Part shown: piece after piece, positions 527 through 9,123 of the stretch
Numbering within the stretch: the first letter of the stretch is position 1
Layout of the letters: every line of letters starts with the position of its first letter
Source: a virus
Reading direction: 5' to 3' (one strand)
IMG/VR virus record: IMGVR_UViG_3300042561_001692
Coordinates: 1 to 22,830 of that record
Length of the DNA stretch: 22,830 nt
Made by a program: the position numbers and the translations under genes
Notes under the pieces: model-generated
Told to the model about the DNA's origin: nothing
The model's input: only the letters and a program-made list of their open reading frames with translations
Databases searched by the model: none

Positions 527-1819
527 TTAGGACCTCCTCTTTAACTTCTGTAGGAGTTGGTAAGCAACCCCAGGATTTTCCGTTGCCCACTGATTCAAGG
601 CTTCCGGTGTCATCCCACTTGCACCTCCAAGATCTTGCAGCTGTCTCTGAAGAACTTGATCCTTCAGCATGCTCCTACCCAATTGCTGCTGGCCCTCATA
701 GAAGGAAGAAAGGGGGACACTTGTAGGAGCAGCGTACTGCTGAGCAGCGTTAAGTACTTCTTGAGAGAGTGCGCGTTCTTGAACATTTTGACGTTGTGCG
801 GGGACACCGGCCCCAGTAGACACAACTCCAGGTCCTAATGATGTGGGTGCTGAAGGGGTCTGTCGTCCGGCTTGCGATCCCGCCCCTGCCCCCGAAAGCG
901 GAGGAGGGAGGATCGGTGCTGGTGGCGAAGTACCACCAACAGGAGTCTGACCCATTCCTTGATATTGCGCAAAGCGAAATGACCGATCTCTTGCGCCGCT
1001 GTAATCAGGTGCTAATTCCCCAGGATTAACAACTGGTCTGTTTTGAATTGGTGTAACGCGTGGATCTTTGCGTGGGTCATAAACCAATCCTTGATCCTGA
1101 AGAATCCCGGTTAAACCACGACTTGCTTCGATCAAAGGTGTGGGATCTGCCAGGCCCCATGCCATACCACCCATTCCGCCAAGGGCTGTTGCACCACGCA
1201 AACCAGTTGCACCACCGGGAGCCAGATTGCGAACTAAACTTCCAACTTGACCAAAACCAGATTGTCCTGTTAAAGCACGCGCTGCTTTTTCAGAGGTGCC
1301 ACCAAACTGCTTCAGGAATTCACGACGCAAAGCAGGGTCACGCATGAAAGGTCCACCGAATCCGGTTGGGCTGACCAGTGCTCCCTGAAGACCTGTAGCA
1401 ACTTGACGTGCGCCTTGTACTGCATCACCAATGACAGGTGCTTTAAGGGCTCCTGTTGCATACTGCTGAACGCTACGGGCAAGTTGTGGCGCAGAACCTG
1501 CAGCTTCCTGAATGGCTCGATTAACAATACCAGCCTGAGCCGAACGCTGAAGACCAGCTGGCATCCCCGCCACGTCGGTAATCAGACCAGTAAAACGAGC
1601 TGGGATATTGCCAAAGCTTGCACCTGCAAACTGACTAGGCAATCCACGCTGGAGAACATTTTCAGCCTGTGCGGCCAGTGCTCTGTACGTTTGTGGGTTG
1701 GTTGCTGTGTCAGCAACCTGCTTAACAACCTTAGGTGCTGCCTTAGCGCCAAACCCCTGGACAGCCCGCAGAGCTGCTGGGCCACCACGCATGAACATCT
1801 GGAGAAATGCGTTACCCAT
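527..1819 (-). CDS. Ala/Gly-rich virion-module protein of unknown function, 430 aa
   Basis: I do not recognise this protein. I chose the ATG at 1819, which shares one base with the upstream stop (TAATG). A TTG at 1828 would add three residues but has no room for a ribosome binding site. The N-terminal 250 residues are Ala/Gly-rich and mildly hydrophobic (AALRAVQGFGAKAAPK; GATALGGMGGMAWGLADP), like membrane-active or structural phage proteins. A Pro-rich linker follows (PAPILPPPLSG), then a Gln-rich helical end (QQQLGRSMLKDQVLQRQLQ). Its last codons supply the GAGGAGG used by the SleB-like gene. Its position between a possible connector and a wall hydrolase suggests a tail or ejection-linked virion protein. 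That is inference. Confidence 0.75.
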   Translation of the reverse strand: MGNAFLQMFMRGGPAALRAVQGFGAKAAPKVVKQVADTATNPQTYRALAAQAENVLQRGLPSQFAGASFGNIPARFTGLITDVAGMPAGLQRSAQAGIVNRAIQEAAGSAPQLARSVQQYATGALKAPVIGDAVQGARQVATGLQGALVSPTGFGGPFMRDPALRREFLKQFGGTSEKAARALTGQSGFGQVGSLVRNLAPGGATGLRGATALGGMGGMAWGLADPTPLIEASRGLTGILQDQGLVYDPRKDPRVTPIQNRPVVNPGELAPDYSGARDRSFRFAQYQGMGQTPVGGTSPPAPILPPPLSGAGAGSQAGRQTPSAPTSLGPGVVSTGAGVPAQRQNVQERALSQEVLNAAQQYAAPTSVPLSSFYEGQQQLGRSMLKDQVLQRQLQDLGGASGMTPEALNQWATENPGVAYQLLQKLKRRS

Positions 1820-2280
1820 TAGCGCCAAGCCTCATGAAGATAAATACGAGAACCCACTGCAGTATCAGCTGGACCAGGTAGAGCTTGAATAAATTCCGCA
1901 CCTGATCGCTCATATCGATACCTGGCTTGGAAGGGATCCTTGTAGTTTGGAACATACAAGATGTTGGCTAAACGATCTGTTTCATACAGGTAGATCTCAT
2001 TCCAAACCTTAAGGGCTTCCTTGGCGTTACTCGACCGAATTGTACGGTCAACGTCACCAGCGATGCTTTCTAAACGCGTGGAAGGAGATGTTGCTACTTC
2101 TGTTTTCTTTTCTGCGGTATCACAACGACCAATCTGGATGATAATCTTGTCGTAAAAATATGAATCCGGGACTGTATTCATAGCCTCTTCCAGACGAGCG
2201 TAATCACCCGCCGGGACAGAAACTGTGAAGTAACCCAGGTGATACCTGACCCTACTTTTATCGAAGTCAGATAATTGCAC
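1819..2280 (-). CDS. Possible head-completion/connector protein, 153 aa
   Basis: Starts at GTG 2280; an in-frame TGA lies a few codons upstream, so no earlier start is available, and the Shine-Dalgarno is poor. The protein has normal globular composition, unlike most of its neighbours: an N-terminal DFDKSRVRYHLGY, then VPAGDYARLEEAM, a middle rich in charged residues, and a Tyr-rich end. Size, lack of repeats and place downstream of capsid genes would suit a head-tail connector or head-completion protein, but no diagnostic motif is visible. Its stop overlaps the start of the next gene (TAATG), so translation is probably coupled. A TATAATTA octamer lies 23 bases upstream of the start. Confidence 0.7.
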   Translation of the reverse strand: MQLSDFDKSRVRYHLGYFTVSVPAGDYARLEEAMNTVPDSYFYDKIIIQIGRCDTAEKKTEVATSPSTRLESIAGDVDRTIRSSNAKEALKVWNEIYLYETDRLANILYVPNYKDPFQARYRYERSGAEFIQALPGPADTAVGSRIYLHEAWR

Positions 2281-2323: not shown

Positions 2324-3070
2324 TCACAGCCGAAAGAATTGGTTTGTGGCATAGCGTTGACCCTGGAGATATGGATCTTCACCGGTAAATTGTGAAAGGA
2401 AGTTTTTAGGTGTCAACACTTGCTGCATCATGCCGCCAATTAAACCTTCCTTCATTTGCTCCATAAGTGTCTTAGGTTTTTCTTTCTCCCCAAGAACACT
2501 GATCAACGCATCAATCAACTGACCTTGCTGAGTTTTATTTGCAATTTCATTCTCAACAAAAGCTTGGGCTAGTGCTTGAGATGTGGCTGAATCTCCCCCA
2601 AAGCTTGCATCACTTTTGCGTGTTGTTGCAGCTTGAGGAAGCTCGCTCAAGTGAAATGTTTGAAGCTCATAAGGGCCAGTGCGCAACACGGAAACGTTTC
2701 CAGCATTTCCCATGCCAGCATGAGTAGAAATAGAACCTTGGCCAAGAAAGCGTAATGCGGTGCCTTCGGGAAAAGCGTAATCTTCTCCCCCGTGATTCGT
2801 AGTAGCACCAGGGACAGGAGCTTCCCTAGGACCCATGCGACTTGTGATTTGTGTCGCAGGATTTAAAGTAAAACCTTGTTTTTCTGGATTATAAACAGAA
2901 CGCCACTGCTCTTCGTTGGGTAAACGAAATTGCAAAAACTGTCCAATATCTTTACGTGCAATTGAAAGGGGAATTCGTTTCCCGTCTTTGGTTAATTCAA
3001 AATGAGCATGGGGACCACTGGAACGACCAGTGGAGCCAACCTTACCTTTGTATAGAGCTGGACCGGCCAT
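2324..3070 (-). CDS. M23-family (LytM-type) metallopeptidase with permuted motif order, 248 aa
   Basis: Likely zinc-dependent peptidoglycan endopeptidase of the virion. In ordinary M23 domains the HxxxD zinc motif comes first, a YaHLS histidine follows, and a VGSTGxSxGPHLHFE block with HxH closes the domain. Here the closing block is at the very N-terminus: GKVGSTGRSSGPHAHFEL at residues 9-26, with H21 and H23. The opening block follows: ITSRMGPRE (75-83), NHGGEDYAFPEGT (92-104) with H93 and D97, then TFHLSEL (138-144) with H140. All four blocks needed for catalysis are present, so it may be active. A C-terminal helical tail (about 160-248) has no counterpart in the family. The ATG at 3070 sits just after a terminator, so an upstream domain is not missing. 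A purely structural, inactive relative is the alternative. Confidence 0.8.
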   Translation of the reverse strand: MAGPALYKGKVGSTGRSSGPHAHFELTKDGKRIPLSIARKDIGQFLQFRLPNEEQWRSVYNPEKQGFTLNPATQITSRMGPREAPVPGATTNHGGEDYAFPEGTALRFLGQGSISTHAGMGNAGNVSVLRTGPYELQTFHLSELPQAATTRKSDASFGGDSATSQALAQAFVENEIANKTQQGQLIDALISVLGEKEKPKTLMEQMKEGLIGGMMQQVLTPKNFLSQFTGEDPYLQGQRYATNQFFRL

Positions 3071-3093: not shown

Positions 3094-3119
3094 CGAAAAA
3101 ACCCCTGGTTTCCCAGGGG
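3094..3119 (-). terminator. Rho-independent terminator after the SH3/HhH gene
   Basis: On the minus strand a perfect 7-bp GC-rich stem (CCCCTGG at 3119-3113 pairing with CCAGGGG at 3108-3102, loop GAAA) is followed at once by TTTTTT and then CGTTTT. It lies 20 bases downstream of the stop of the SH3/HhH gene and 24 bases before the M23 gene start. This is the only convincing intrinsic terminator in the window. It probably lowers, rather than stops, expression of the lysin end of the cluster. Confidence 0.8.
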
Positions 3120-3138
3120 CTAGAAGCGTAAGATGTAA

Positions 3139-3567
3139 TTAAACTCGGATCAAGTCAGCTGCCAATACGGCGTCCCAATCAACACGTTTGATCTGCCTGA
3201 GCTGCTCTAAGTTGTTGAACCTCTCACCCGATAAGGACATCTGAAGGTCTTTGATTTCTCGGGCAGTCTTCAAACCAATACCCTTAATATGATCTGCGAT
3301 CATTTGGGCGGTGGCGGAATTGATGTTCAACCGCGTTTCCGGAGGAAAAGAGCGGGGTTCCTCTTGTGCAGCCTTGTCTTTAATCTGAAGAGTTTTTACT
3401 TTTTTGGTTGCCGATTCGTCAGGAATAAGTTCAGACTTGTAAGCGGTATAAACGCGACCGTCTTGGTCTTCGACCATGAACCAATCGCCGTTATCCCACT
3501 CGCTAACGATCTTTACACGCGCACCTGTTTTTTTGTGCTGGTAAAGCATTTCGGCAACAGTAGACAT
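3139..3567 (-). CDS. SH3-like plus helix-hairpin-helix (ComEA-type) protein, 142 aa
   Basis: ATG start at 3567. The N-terminal part (about 7-50) looks like a small beta-barrel of SH3/KOW type: HKKTGARVKIVSEW, DWFMVEDQDGRVY, then YKSELIP. A charged linker (51-75) leads to a C-terminal helix-hairpin-helix unit: RLNINSATAQMIADHIKGIG (79-98) with the KGIG hairpin, then FNNLEQLRQIKRV (117-129). This follows the NiNtA...GIG...F.sleeL pattern of ComEA-like DNA-binding repeats. In known families that repeat contacts DNA backbone without sequence specificity. Its place among head genes suggests a head or connector component touching packaged DNA; this is inference. The leader is a perfect hairpin, and a terminator follows. 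Confidence 0.75.
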   Translation of the reverse strand: MSTVAEMLYQHKKTGARVKIVSEWDNGDWFMVEDQDGRVYTAYKSELIPDESATKKVKTLQIKDKAAQEEPRSFPPETRLNINSATAQMIADHIKGIGLKTAREIKDLQMSLSGERFNNLEQLRQIKRVDWDAVLAADLIRV

Positions 3568-4434: not shown

Positions 4435-5598
4435 TCAAACGTCGCCGTCATCAGACACAAAGCTGTAAGCGGTGGTAACAAAATCCTTGTTCAGAATCTC
4501 GAAACCAGCGTACAGTTGCCAGATGAGGATGATGAAACGGCTGAAGTCGTCGTTGTTGTTGATGAGAACCTGAGCGTTCGGACCGCCGATGCCCACGCCA
4601 ACGGCCTGAGGACCGAAGAAGTAACCCTGAGCAACCTCTTGGTTGGCATAAGGGGCAGCACCGGTGAAGGAGGCAGAGACGTTCTTGGTCGGGAAGTTGG
4701 TCGACTCGAAGAACTTGACGCCTTCAAACTGAACGCCAGTAGGCATCACGGGCTCACCAGCCAGGAAGTAGCCCTGACCAGCCTGGGGACCCATGTAGAA
4801 GCTGGCGTTGTTAGGCATCATGGGGTTGCCCATGTACATGCCTTGACCAGGGTTACCAGCGTAACGAGCGATCTCACGGAAGTCAGGATCACGACGCAGG
4901 TGCATCATGAAGGTGGGATCACAGATGCAACGATACAGACCATCAGAGAAGGTCGGAACGTTGCGCTTGCGCAGGTCCTTAACAACGGTCAGCAGGTCAG
5001 TGCGAACCGAGAACTGCTGAAGATCAGCGGTGTACTCAGCGCTGCTATAGGTGATTTGACCAGAAGAGTTCTTGGCCTTGCTACCAGGGAAGTAGTAACC
5101 GCCTTGGGTGGTAGAAGCTTCACCGTTGGCTTCGGCTTTGGCAAGTTCATCAATGAACACGCGATCGCGCCAGCGGCGATAGTCGTCGAGCAGGGTCAGA
5201 GAACCGATGCTCTGGTGGAACATGTTCAGGTTACCGGTGTCCAGCAGCAGACGCTGGGCGGTAATCAGAGTTTCACGAGCGATCTTGAAGGTGCTGGGCT
5301 GAGTAGGATCACCCGGATCTGCAGGGCCGGTGTACTCTTTGAGCACCACCAGGACCTTTTCCTTCGTGATGTTCCGGCTGTTGGCAGTACCGATGGTCTG
5401 GTCGGACACGCGCTCACGGCTGTCCTTGGTACCAGGGGTACCCCAGAACTTATAGCGATCCAGCTGAACAGTTTGACCGGGCTGACGGGTGAAGTCGTGA
5501 ACGACCACGGGCTCCACTGCCATTTCAGCAATGTAAGCAGGGTGCGGACGATAAAGTTCCGCACCTAAGATCTTTGGAAAGTCGTTATCAATAAACAC
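4435..5598 (-). CDS. Major capsid protein, N4 gp56-like, 387 aa
   Basis: The main shell protein of the head. Two blocks resemble the N4 gp56 family of HK97-fold capsid proteins: LYRCICDPTFMMHLRRDPDF (221-240) with the Y..vi.Pd...Lr.D pattern, and the C-terminal GPQAVGVGIGG (329-339) followed by DDFSRFIILIWQLYAGFEIL (350-369). No prohead protease or delta-domain is apparent. The start is GTG at 5598, with GGAGG at 5609-5613 and a rather long 10-base spacer; no in-frame ATG precedes it. Codon choice is restricted and GC-rich compared with most neighbours, as expected for the most abundant virion protein. It follows the scaffold candidate after a 118-base leader with two inverted repeats, which could carry its own promoter. 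The family assignment is from motifs; the role is supported by position as well. Confidence 0.85.
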   Translation of the reverse strand: MFIDNDFPKILGAELYRPHPAYIAEMAVEPVVVHDFTRQPGQTVQLDRYKFWGTPGTKDSRERVSDQTIGTANSRNITKEKVLVVLKEYTGPADPGDPTQPSTFKIARETLITAQRLLLDTGNLNMFHQSIGSLTLLDDYRRWRDRVFIDELAKAEANGEASTTQGGYYFPGSKAKNSSGQITYSSAEYTADLQQFSVRTDLLTVVKDLRKRNVPTFSDGLYRCICDPTFMMHLRRDPDFREIARYAGNPGQGMYMGNPMMPNNASFYMGPQAGQGYFLAGEPVMPTGVQFEGVKFFESTNFPTKNVSASFTGAAPYANQEVAQGYFFGPQAVGVGIGGPNAQVLINNNDDFSRFIILIWQLYAGFEILNKDFVTTAYSFVSDDGDV

Positions 5599-6679: not shown

Positions 6680-8429
6680 AACTCATCTCCTTTTGTAAGG
6701 CCTCGAGGGTTCGATACAGATATGGGGTTAAATCCAGTCTGGGATCCGCAGCCATCGGTAGATCCGGTGATTGCGGGTGAGGGGTCTGCATCATGCCCCC
6801 CACTAAGCGAGCGAATTGAGAGTATGCACCCTGTAATTCGTTCACCATCCTGAACGGGAACCCAGATAACATCTCGGCCCGTTCCTCATCCGTTTTTGAC
6901 GGAAAGAGGTATTTCAGTGCTTCAATGCTATCAACACCTAATTCTTGCAGATTTCGGACAACAATGGAGTTGTTCAGAATATCTTGCGTTGAATCTTCGT
7001 AGACGGGACCCAACCAACGCCAAAGAATAGTTAGGTCACCATCAGGAATCAAACCAGTAACTCCGGGTGGAATTTGCTGAGTTTGAACCGATGCCATCAT
7101 CAACTGTTTGATCTGAGTATTGAAGCCATCTAAAGCAGCTTCATACAAATCAAGTTCATCTTGACTGGCACCTTCGGATGGCTCAACTGGCTTTTCGATG
7201 CCAGCAGCTGAAGCTAACGTTTCCCGGAACATGCGTTCTTCTTGGAAAATAATTAGCTCAAGACAGCGACAAATCCCGTGGTTGTAAATGGCGTTAGCTT
7301 TTTTCTTAGAGGTAGCCGCAACCCGCCCAAATAGGGATTTGTATTCAGTAGCAGTAACACCAGCAGAAATCGAAAGTTCATCCACACCGCCAAGAGCAGT
7401 ACGAATTTCTTCCCGATACTGACGAGCGAAAGCGTTTTGGTCACCAGTAATAGCATCTGGAACGATGTAGCCAACTCGGTCGTTTGGTTCCAGGTTGGCG
7501 ATCACACGCGGAACTCGAATCTGTCCGTCTACACCACGCGTGATTGGATCTTGCTTAAAGGTGGAACGGCTGTACGCACTTAAGCTGCCGAAACCAGAGT
7601 TTGCTGCAATTGAAGGGCGCTGGACTGTACCATCTGTCCCCGACTCCATAAGGTCGGTTTTGGGACGAGACGAAAGCAAAGTTGGATTACCAAAGAACTG
7701 AACGTTCTTCCGCATGGTGCGGACCAACTCGTCGTGCGTAACGATATGGTTGGCCATGGCGTCAAATTCGCCAAAGCCCTCCATTGAAAAGCCCTTGGGA
7801 TTGTTGAAGATTTCAACGCAAGGAATAAAACCAAGGGAGTTTTTGAAGGTTTTGGTTTTGCCGGGGTTGGCAAAGGACGGCATCTCAAAAGACATTTCGC
7901 CTTCTGAGTGTGTTTCTTCAATTTCCTTTGCTTTGATCGAAAGTTTGATATATCGTTTTGCACCCTGGTCCGCAGTAATTGCATTGCCAGTTACATTGGT
8001 GACATTGATGTTGTCACCAAAACCAAAACCACGACGAACCTTGTAGCTATAGATGATGATTACTTCCTCCAGCTCACCGTCTACGTTATAAAACGTTCGG
8101 TACTCGTGCTCGCGGAAATAATAAAGCCGGTAGTTCTGCTTGGTGGGGCGAATATAAAACAGACCCTTGCCGTCACACAAGAAGTAATCCCAGATGGAAT
8201 CCAGGCGGGTATCCAGTTGGTTGTACTTCAGTACGCGATCAATAAAATCTTTGCGCTGGTTACCAAAGTTATCTTGACCTGGGAAAAATTCAACACCCTG
8301 ACGGATGCCAAATAACTTCATCTGGGCCAGGTGAGAGGCTACAACGCTGGTATCAACAACCGCATTACCGTCTTTCTCGATATATGCGTTGATGATTTCC
8401 TGAAGTCTGGCATTAGAGCTAGTTGCCAT
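6081..8429 (-). CDS. Portal protein with a long Gly/Pro/Ser-rich C-terminal tail, 782 aa
   Basis: The dodecameric portal at the head vertex, through which DNA is packaged and ejected. The core (about 1-580) resembles SPP1 gp6-type portals: a start with several aromatic segments (LDSIWDYFLCDGKGLFYIRP, 76-95), SLGFIPCVEIFNNP (198-211), and GFGEFDAMANHIVTHDELVR (218-237) followed by KNVQFFGNP. ATG at 8429; the small gene upstream ends 8 bases inside it. From residue 584 the frame continues for nearly 200 residues as a disordered Gly/Pro/Ser/Arg-rich tail ending in a basic RRRVGKSRK. This tail is encoded entirely within the start of the scaffold gene. The core is secure; whether the full tail is made and kept is less so. 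Confidence 0.85.
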   Translation of the reverse strand: MATSSNARLQEIINAYIEKDGNAVVDTSVVASHLAQMKLFGIRQGVEFFPGQDNFGNQRKDFIDRVLKYNQLDTRLDSIWDYFLCDGKGLFYIRPTKQNYRLYYFREHEYRTFYNVDGELEEVIIIYSYKVRRGFGFGDNINVTNVTGNAITADQGAKRYIKLSIKAKEIEETHSEGEMSFEMPSFANPGKTKTFKNSLGFIPCVEIFNNPKGFSMEGFGEFDAMANHIVTHDELVRTMRKNVQFFGNPTLLSSRPKTDLMESGTDGTVQRPSIAANSGFGSLSAYSRSTFKQDPITRGVDGQIRVPRVIANLEPNDRVGYIVPDAITGDQNAFARQYREEIRTALGGVDELSISAGVTATEYKSLFGRVAATSKKKANAIYNHGICRCLELIIFQEERMFRETLASAAGIEKPVEPSEGASQDELDLYEAALDGFNTQIKQLMMASVQTQQIPPGVTGLIPDGDLTILWRWLGPVYEDSTQDILNNSIVVRNLQELGVDSIEALKYLFPSKTDEERAEMLSGFPFRMVNELQGAYSQFARLVGGMMQTPHPQSPDLPMAADPRLDLTPYLYRTLEALQKEMSYAGRYRPIDPTDEPTVARSGSSKQLRGGSAPSAIGSSGLSGGYQLPPSSAPGEPQLPIRPVSVRPPIPIGPGGGIDLESVGIGVQQGGEPAERTSSIPVPGSTVGSDDLYPGQLRVDQPPSYATIGSADLISQPGILAQLFPNLLDSILGGNRGPGGNEPGQPSGDGRVRDRSSGNPEQLRTPAGNNAGQRRRVGKSRK

Positions 8430-8937: not shown

Positions 8938-9123
8938 TTACTCGTCTTCTTCCAGTTCATACAAAGATGGATCTGCAACCTTGGTCAAAACAATCCCATC
9001 ACCTTGTACGTCCCAATTCAGGATATCTCCTTCACGCCATCCCATTTCTTCTAGAAGTTCTTCTGGAAAAGTGAGGAATTGCTCACCGTTTTCATCTTCT
9101 TCTACTTCAAGGATGTAGCTCAT
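8938..9123 (-). CDS. AbrB/MazE-like small protein, 61 aa
   Basis: ATG at 9123 overlaps the upstream stop as ATGA. Residues 1-48 fit the swapped-hairpin AbrB/MazE fold: YILEVEEDENGEQFLTFPEE (3-22), LLEEMGWREGDIL (23-35) and GDGIVLTKV (41-49), matching the pattern of strand, iP.ell..lg...GD, strand. The remainder is a short acidic tail. Family members bind DNA as dimers or act as antitoxins. No toxin partner is adjacent. Similar small acidic proteins are, to my memory, common in cyanophages, with unknown role. DNA binding is uncertain because basic residues are few. Confidence 0.65.
   Translation of the reverse strand: MSYILEVEEDENGEQFLTFPEELLEEMGWREGDILNWDVQGDGIVLTKVADPSLYELEEDE

Follow-up and report, generated by a model that had tools for sequence, protein, structure and literature searches.

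The stretch of DNA analysed here (22,830 nt in total, hereafter the window) comes from a cyanophage of the S-EIV1-like lineage: TerL and the major head protein are each 86% identical to those of S-EIV1, the portal protein is 76% identical, and the gene order is the same. Among its open reading frames (ORFs), we found one of 248 codons with an ATG start on the minus strand (2324–3070), which follows the gene for the major head protein within the structural module and is syntenic with its S-EIV1 counterpart. The ORF list, the two-stretch matches in Pfam, NCBIfam and the PDB, and the homologues delimit this gene as a permuted M23 peptidase domain followed by a C-terminal tail. The upstream neighbour (3139–3567, minus strand) encodes a 142-residue helix-hairpin-helix protein, 80% identical to that of S-EIV1, and the downstream neighbour (1819–2280, minus strand) a 153-residue protein of phrog_29158, 88% identical.

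A terminator-like hairpin separates the M23 gene from its upstream neighbour (3100–3121, minus strand; RNA fold −19.1 kcal/mol, z −3.5), and an in-frame stop lies four codons 5′ of the ATG. Because the stop precedes the start so closely and the hairpin separates the preceding gene, nothing is missing upstream of the ORF; these two features, together with the conserved start, exclude an overlooked upstream start or portion of the gene. Elsewhere in the window, a 350-residue ORF that runs antisense to the gene for the major head protein (4516–5568, plus strand) is probably a compositional shadow, and a small gene between the portal and terminase genes (8938–9123, minus strand) encodes a 61-residue protein in which a MazE/AbrB-like antitoxin domain was recognised (E 8.7e-8).

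A circularly permuted M23 domain

The M23 family is one of the main families of wall peptidases and is annotated by collinear profiles. In the LytM/M23 scheme, zinc is bound by a His, an Asp and the second His of HxH, and catalysis is carried out by the first His of HxH and the His of HL. The sequence-only reading had proposed that these motifs are circularly permuted in the window protein. On re-reading the ORF, we located every motif and residue on which that proposal was built, namely GKVGSTGRSSGPHAHFEL (residues 9–26), SRMGPRE (77–83), NHGGEDYAFPEGT (92–104), TFHLSEL (138–144), and H21, H23, H93, D97 and H140.

Four segments can be recognised in the protein, all encoded on the minus strand. 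The usual C-terminal part of M23 is N-terminal here (residues 5–33, 2972–3058; GKVGSTGRSSGPHAHFELTKDGKRI, with H21 and H23), as assigned from PF01551 profile positions 70–94 and from the conservation in 55 sequences. A linker that bridges the former C- and N-termini follows (residues 34–73, 2852–2971); it is predicted to be ordered, and is shorter in the tape-measure relatives described below. The usual N-terminal part comes next (residues 74–151, 2618–2851; TSRMG.R, HGGED and HLSELP, with H93, D97 and H140), as assigned from phmmer matches to 3slu, 6muk and 2gu1, from MepM and ShyA, and from the same conservation. The remainder is a variable, helical C-terminal tail (residues 152–248, 2327–2617).

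The Pfam and NCBIfam M23 profiles and the PDB sequences 3slu and 6muk matched the protein in two stretches, in reversed order. PF01551 matched with an E-value of 1.4e-6, residues 9–33 corresponding to positions 70–94 of the 96 in the profile, and the scores were 28.8 bits for the full protein (cut-off 28.7) and 30.7 bits for the domain. The N-terminal 63 residues on their own also matched M23 (E 1.7e-4). The NCBIfam MepM profile (E 1.1e-8) and ShyA behaved likewise, and in the phmmer match to 3slu (E 1.1e-10), residues 62–148 aligned with chain positions 213–302 and residues 9–38 with positions 312–342, so that two segments neighbouring in the target are reversed in the window protein. As a control, conventional bacterial M23 proteins were examined under the permuted profile, and their two pieces appeared in normal order, ~15 residues apart. 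The order HxH, HxxxD, HL was found in the window protein and in all of the 55 aligned domains, the conventional order HxxxD, HL, HxH being encountered in none, and the same reversal is retained in dozens of independent contigs. No further M23 motifs flanked the permuted domains in the sequences read, which excludes tandem M23 remnants, and the domain profile search of the window protein gave M23 matches only and none to NlpC/P60.

Structure prediction is consistent with the permuted order. AlphaFold2, run on residues 1–152 with 55 sequences, confidently predicted one compact domain (pLDDT 94.2, pTM 0.88), whose strands match the M23 set in rotated order and whose linker residues 34–73 mostly exceed a pLDDT of 90. 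In the full-length model (22 sequences), block means reached at least ~90 for the greater part of residues 21–150, and pLDDT fell below 50 over most of the tail. Foldseek found no significant M23 match in the PDB with either model, a possible outcome of applying a sequential aligner to a permuted domain and not positive evidence for permutation. In a sequential search of BFVD, the best fold match, A0A510E7V3_3, covered the whole domain (E 1.6e-5, TM 0.66 by query), and the third, weaker match was to another permuted protein, the virion structural protein of S-TIM5. Conventional phage M23 proteins gave weak partial matches only, as expected because the query is permuted.

The reversed two-stretch matches, the 55 aligned domains, the purifying selection described below and the single-domain model of residues 1–152 support the reading that the window ORF encodes a circularly permuted M23 domain, in which the last third comes first and the first two thirds come after it. 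On the best reading, the new termini fall in the loop that separates the HL strand from the GxxGxTG-HxH strand, and residues 34–73 join the old ends.

Relatives, conservation and exchange of the domain

Searches for relatives turned up the permuted form widely among phages, in several lineages. A first scan of viral contigs yielded 42 loci and a second, with an alignment as query, 56, with much overlap between them; the S-EIV1 protein as query added 45 more, and those read were of the S-EIV1 type except for the weakest match (L224), a conventional-order M23. A profile alignment that combined six highly divergent permuted sequences lacked the strength needed to scan contigs. The S-EIV1 protein itself (AHV82231, annotated as 'peptidase M23 family') is permuted likewise, with HLD in place of HAH, and has no Pfam match. 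Tape-measure or tail proteins of Acinetobacter and Moraxella phages also contain a permuted M23 domain of the HLD type. The Moraxella match stops at profile position 66 and that of the window type starts at 69–70; the breakpoint lies near positions 66–70 in both. Tape-measure-like proteins with a permuted M23 domain were found in viral contigs as well (L227/L231 and L225), and S-TIM5 and S-TIM54 carry one midway in proteins of ~990 residues labelled virion structural. In the Acinetobacter/Moraxella and the S-TIM5-type proteins alike, the breakpoint coincides, or almost coincides, with that of the window type.

Among the matches listed at an E-value of 1e-6 in 145 cyanobacterial genomes, two spanned both halves of the domain. 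One was a conventional M23 when read, and the other, in genome G137, was the one convincing case: a permuted M23 protein of 208 residues encoded on the chromosome (7458–8084, minus strand; locus L275). The genes adjoining it resemble those of mobile elements and include endonuclease-like and lysozyme-like ORFs; it perhaps belongs to a prophage or a satellite element. Plasmids, when searched, contributed no more than Acinetobacter copies of the tape-measure domain, along with partial M23 matches.

In the alignment of 55 permuted domains, including those of tape-measure proteins, H21, H93, D97 and H140 never vary, and the invariant columns number only eight (G9, H21, G80, R82, H93, D97, G121 and H140). 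Position 23 is His in 28 sequences and Asp in 27. The claim of the sequence-only reading that all expected zinc and catalytic positions are supplied holds for the window protein, and all five residues are invariant in the 22 homologues of the window type. Purifying selection is evident from dN/dS values of 0.035–0.15 among homologue pairs with unsaturated dS. We also noticed individual deviations. One window-type homologue (L042, 5001–5751) has in-frame stops in the tail region, likely owing to a frameshift or an assembly error, and in one permuted tape-measure-like protein (L228–L230 and L242/L277) the first zinc histidine of HxxxD has seemingly been lost (GGGAIDIAVPEGT).

A tree of the two blocks, which comprises ~95 columns and has modest support, grouped 22 permuted sequences (S-EIV1-like, tape-measure and L275) at a support of 0.685 and placed S-TIM54 and S-TIM5 among conventional cyanophage-like M23 proteins (inner nodes 0.54 and 0.82), which hints at more than one permutation event. 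It is tempting, albeit tentative, to speculate that permutation at one fixed loop arose more than once among phages, and that permuted domains of this kind serve as wall peptidases specific to phage virions, shaped for insertion into tail proteins and for cassette exchange matching host walls.

Exchange among close relatives was observed directly. The window M23 protein is only ~30% identical to that of S-EIV1, though the neighbouring proteins are 80% and 88% identical, and the two permuted types in S-EIV1-like phages are ~33% identical to each other. When an HLD-type contig (L183) was compared by BLASTN with a HAH-type contig (L014), DNA identity was 88.4% until 9 nt into the gene, vanished across the M23 domain, and was 89.9% from ~codon 160 on; a further contig, L182, showed the same breaks against L014 and L016. 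Placed on the window by codon number, these breaks delimit an approximate catalytic cassette from codon 3 to ~codon 160 (2591–3062, minus strand). Tail types and catalytic-domain types occur in differing combinations. Given the breaks and the mixed pairings, the permuted domain can be regarded as an interchangeable module: our comparisons showed that it is swapped whole as a cassette between related phages and that the tail is shuffled independently.

Proposed function and comparison with known systems

We consider the window ORF, from an S-EIV1-like cyanophage, likely to specify a circularly permuted zinc peptidase of the M23 family, acting as a virion-associated peptidoglycan endopeptidase that is exchanged as a module. 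The permuted chain would refold into one M23-like domain (residues 1–152). By mapping onto LytM, we take H93, D97 and H23 to be the zinc ligands and H21 and H140 to be catalytic; if so, the former three would bind zinc and the latter two would act on the peptide bond. Gene position and relatives suggest that the enzyme resides in the virion, to which the low-confidence C-terminal tail would likely anchor it. Local opening of peptidoglycan during genome entry would be its most likely role, because the nearest profiles are those of murein endopeptidases and the relatives lie in tail or virion proteins.

Four other explanations need to be weighed. It is unlikely that the permuted fold is genuine and the peptidase activity has been lost, leaving a module that serves in structure or in wall binding, as the degenerate LytM domains in EnvC and NlpD do. 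HxD replaces HxH in about half of the aligned relatives, with Asp at the site of the third zinc ligand, which counts against a permuted peptidase, and the HxxxD histidine is lost in one cyanophage-like contig. Nevertheless, H21, H93, D97 and H140 are invariant across the 55 domains, Asp commonly serves as a zinc ligand, and HLD occurs with an otherwise complete motif set in bacterial M23 proteins of conventional order. In L233, L241 and L250, bacterial M23 proteins that are also conventional in order, HLD replaces HLH. The search for HLD was confined to CTG/CGC codons and under-sampled other codon usage.

Slightly less probable is an active enzyme with another substrate, e.g., a virion protein in head or tail maturation, or with other chemistry. 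Permuted NlpC/P60 proteins have turned to lipids (PMC12994826), and the M23 gene directly follows the head genes. Against this, relatives of the domain lie within tape-measure proteins, a usual site of wall-cutting domains, and the closest profiles are those of MepM and ShyA, both murein endopeptidases. Completion of the site between two subunits, each chain of a swapped dimer receiving its HxH strand from the other, is very unlikely: the sequence is compatible with it and predictions were made for monomers only, but the monomer model is confident throughout the domain, HxH strand included, and in relatives the domain has short linkers and lies within long tape-measure chains. Finally, a protein that has decayed, or was pieced together from two M23 fragments, and lacks a functional site, as the Pfam score barely above the cut-off might suggest, is highly improbable and is refuted for the family as a whole by the active-site residues kept in more than 50 homologues, the purifying selection, the confidently predicted single compact domain and the same order in unrelated phages.

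For the permuted peptidase that we prefer, circularly permuted NlpC/P60 proteins offer a precedent (PMC6403190; PMC12994826). Searches for permuted M23, LytM, lysostaphin or wall endopeptidases found no M23 case in the open-access literature covered, and a 2025 preprint on permuted endopeptidases concerns NlpC/P60. Within that literature, the permuted M23 design provisionally appears not to have been described before. Because annotation relies on collinear profiles, permuted M23 proteins score weakly, are named without the permutation being noted, or are missed. A natural permutation that keeps the full site tests the tolerance of the fold, and of its metal site, for new termini, and such proteins, given their predicted activity, would be ready-made permuted wall-cutting enzymes. 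Moreover, since otherwise near-identical phages exchange the cassette, a link of wall-peptidase type to host becomes directly testable.

The window protein shares with M23 (PF01551; MepM/YebA, ShyA and LytM) both fold parts, the HxxxD, HL and HxH motifs and the predicted strand content, but the order is rotated, the termini lie in the loop before GxxGxTG, and the old ends are connected by a linker, which measured ~17–48 residues in the sequences read. The S-EIV1 protein AHV82231 occupies the same locus between neighbours 80–88% identical to those in the window, is similar in length and has the same permutation; it differs in sequence and in carrying HLD where the window has HAH, and its annotation is silent on the permutation. 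The Acinetobacter and Moraxella domains share the permuted order and a near-identical breakpoint, whereas they lie within a long tail protein and have HLD and a shorter linker. The virion structural proteins of S-TIM5 and S-TIM54 (Aurunvirus) are permuted and keep HxH, but the domain lies within a far longer chain, and its position in the tree hints at a second origin. Permuted NlpC/P60 proteins (YaeF/LRAT-like) likewise represent a branch that underwent circular permutation within a superfamily of wall peptidases; theirs, however, is an unrelated cysteine-peptidase fold, in which permutation accompanied a change to lipid substrates.
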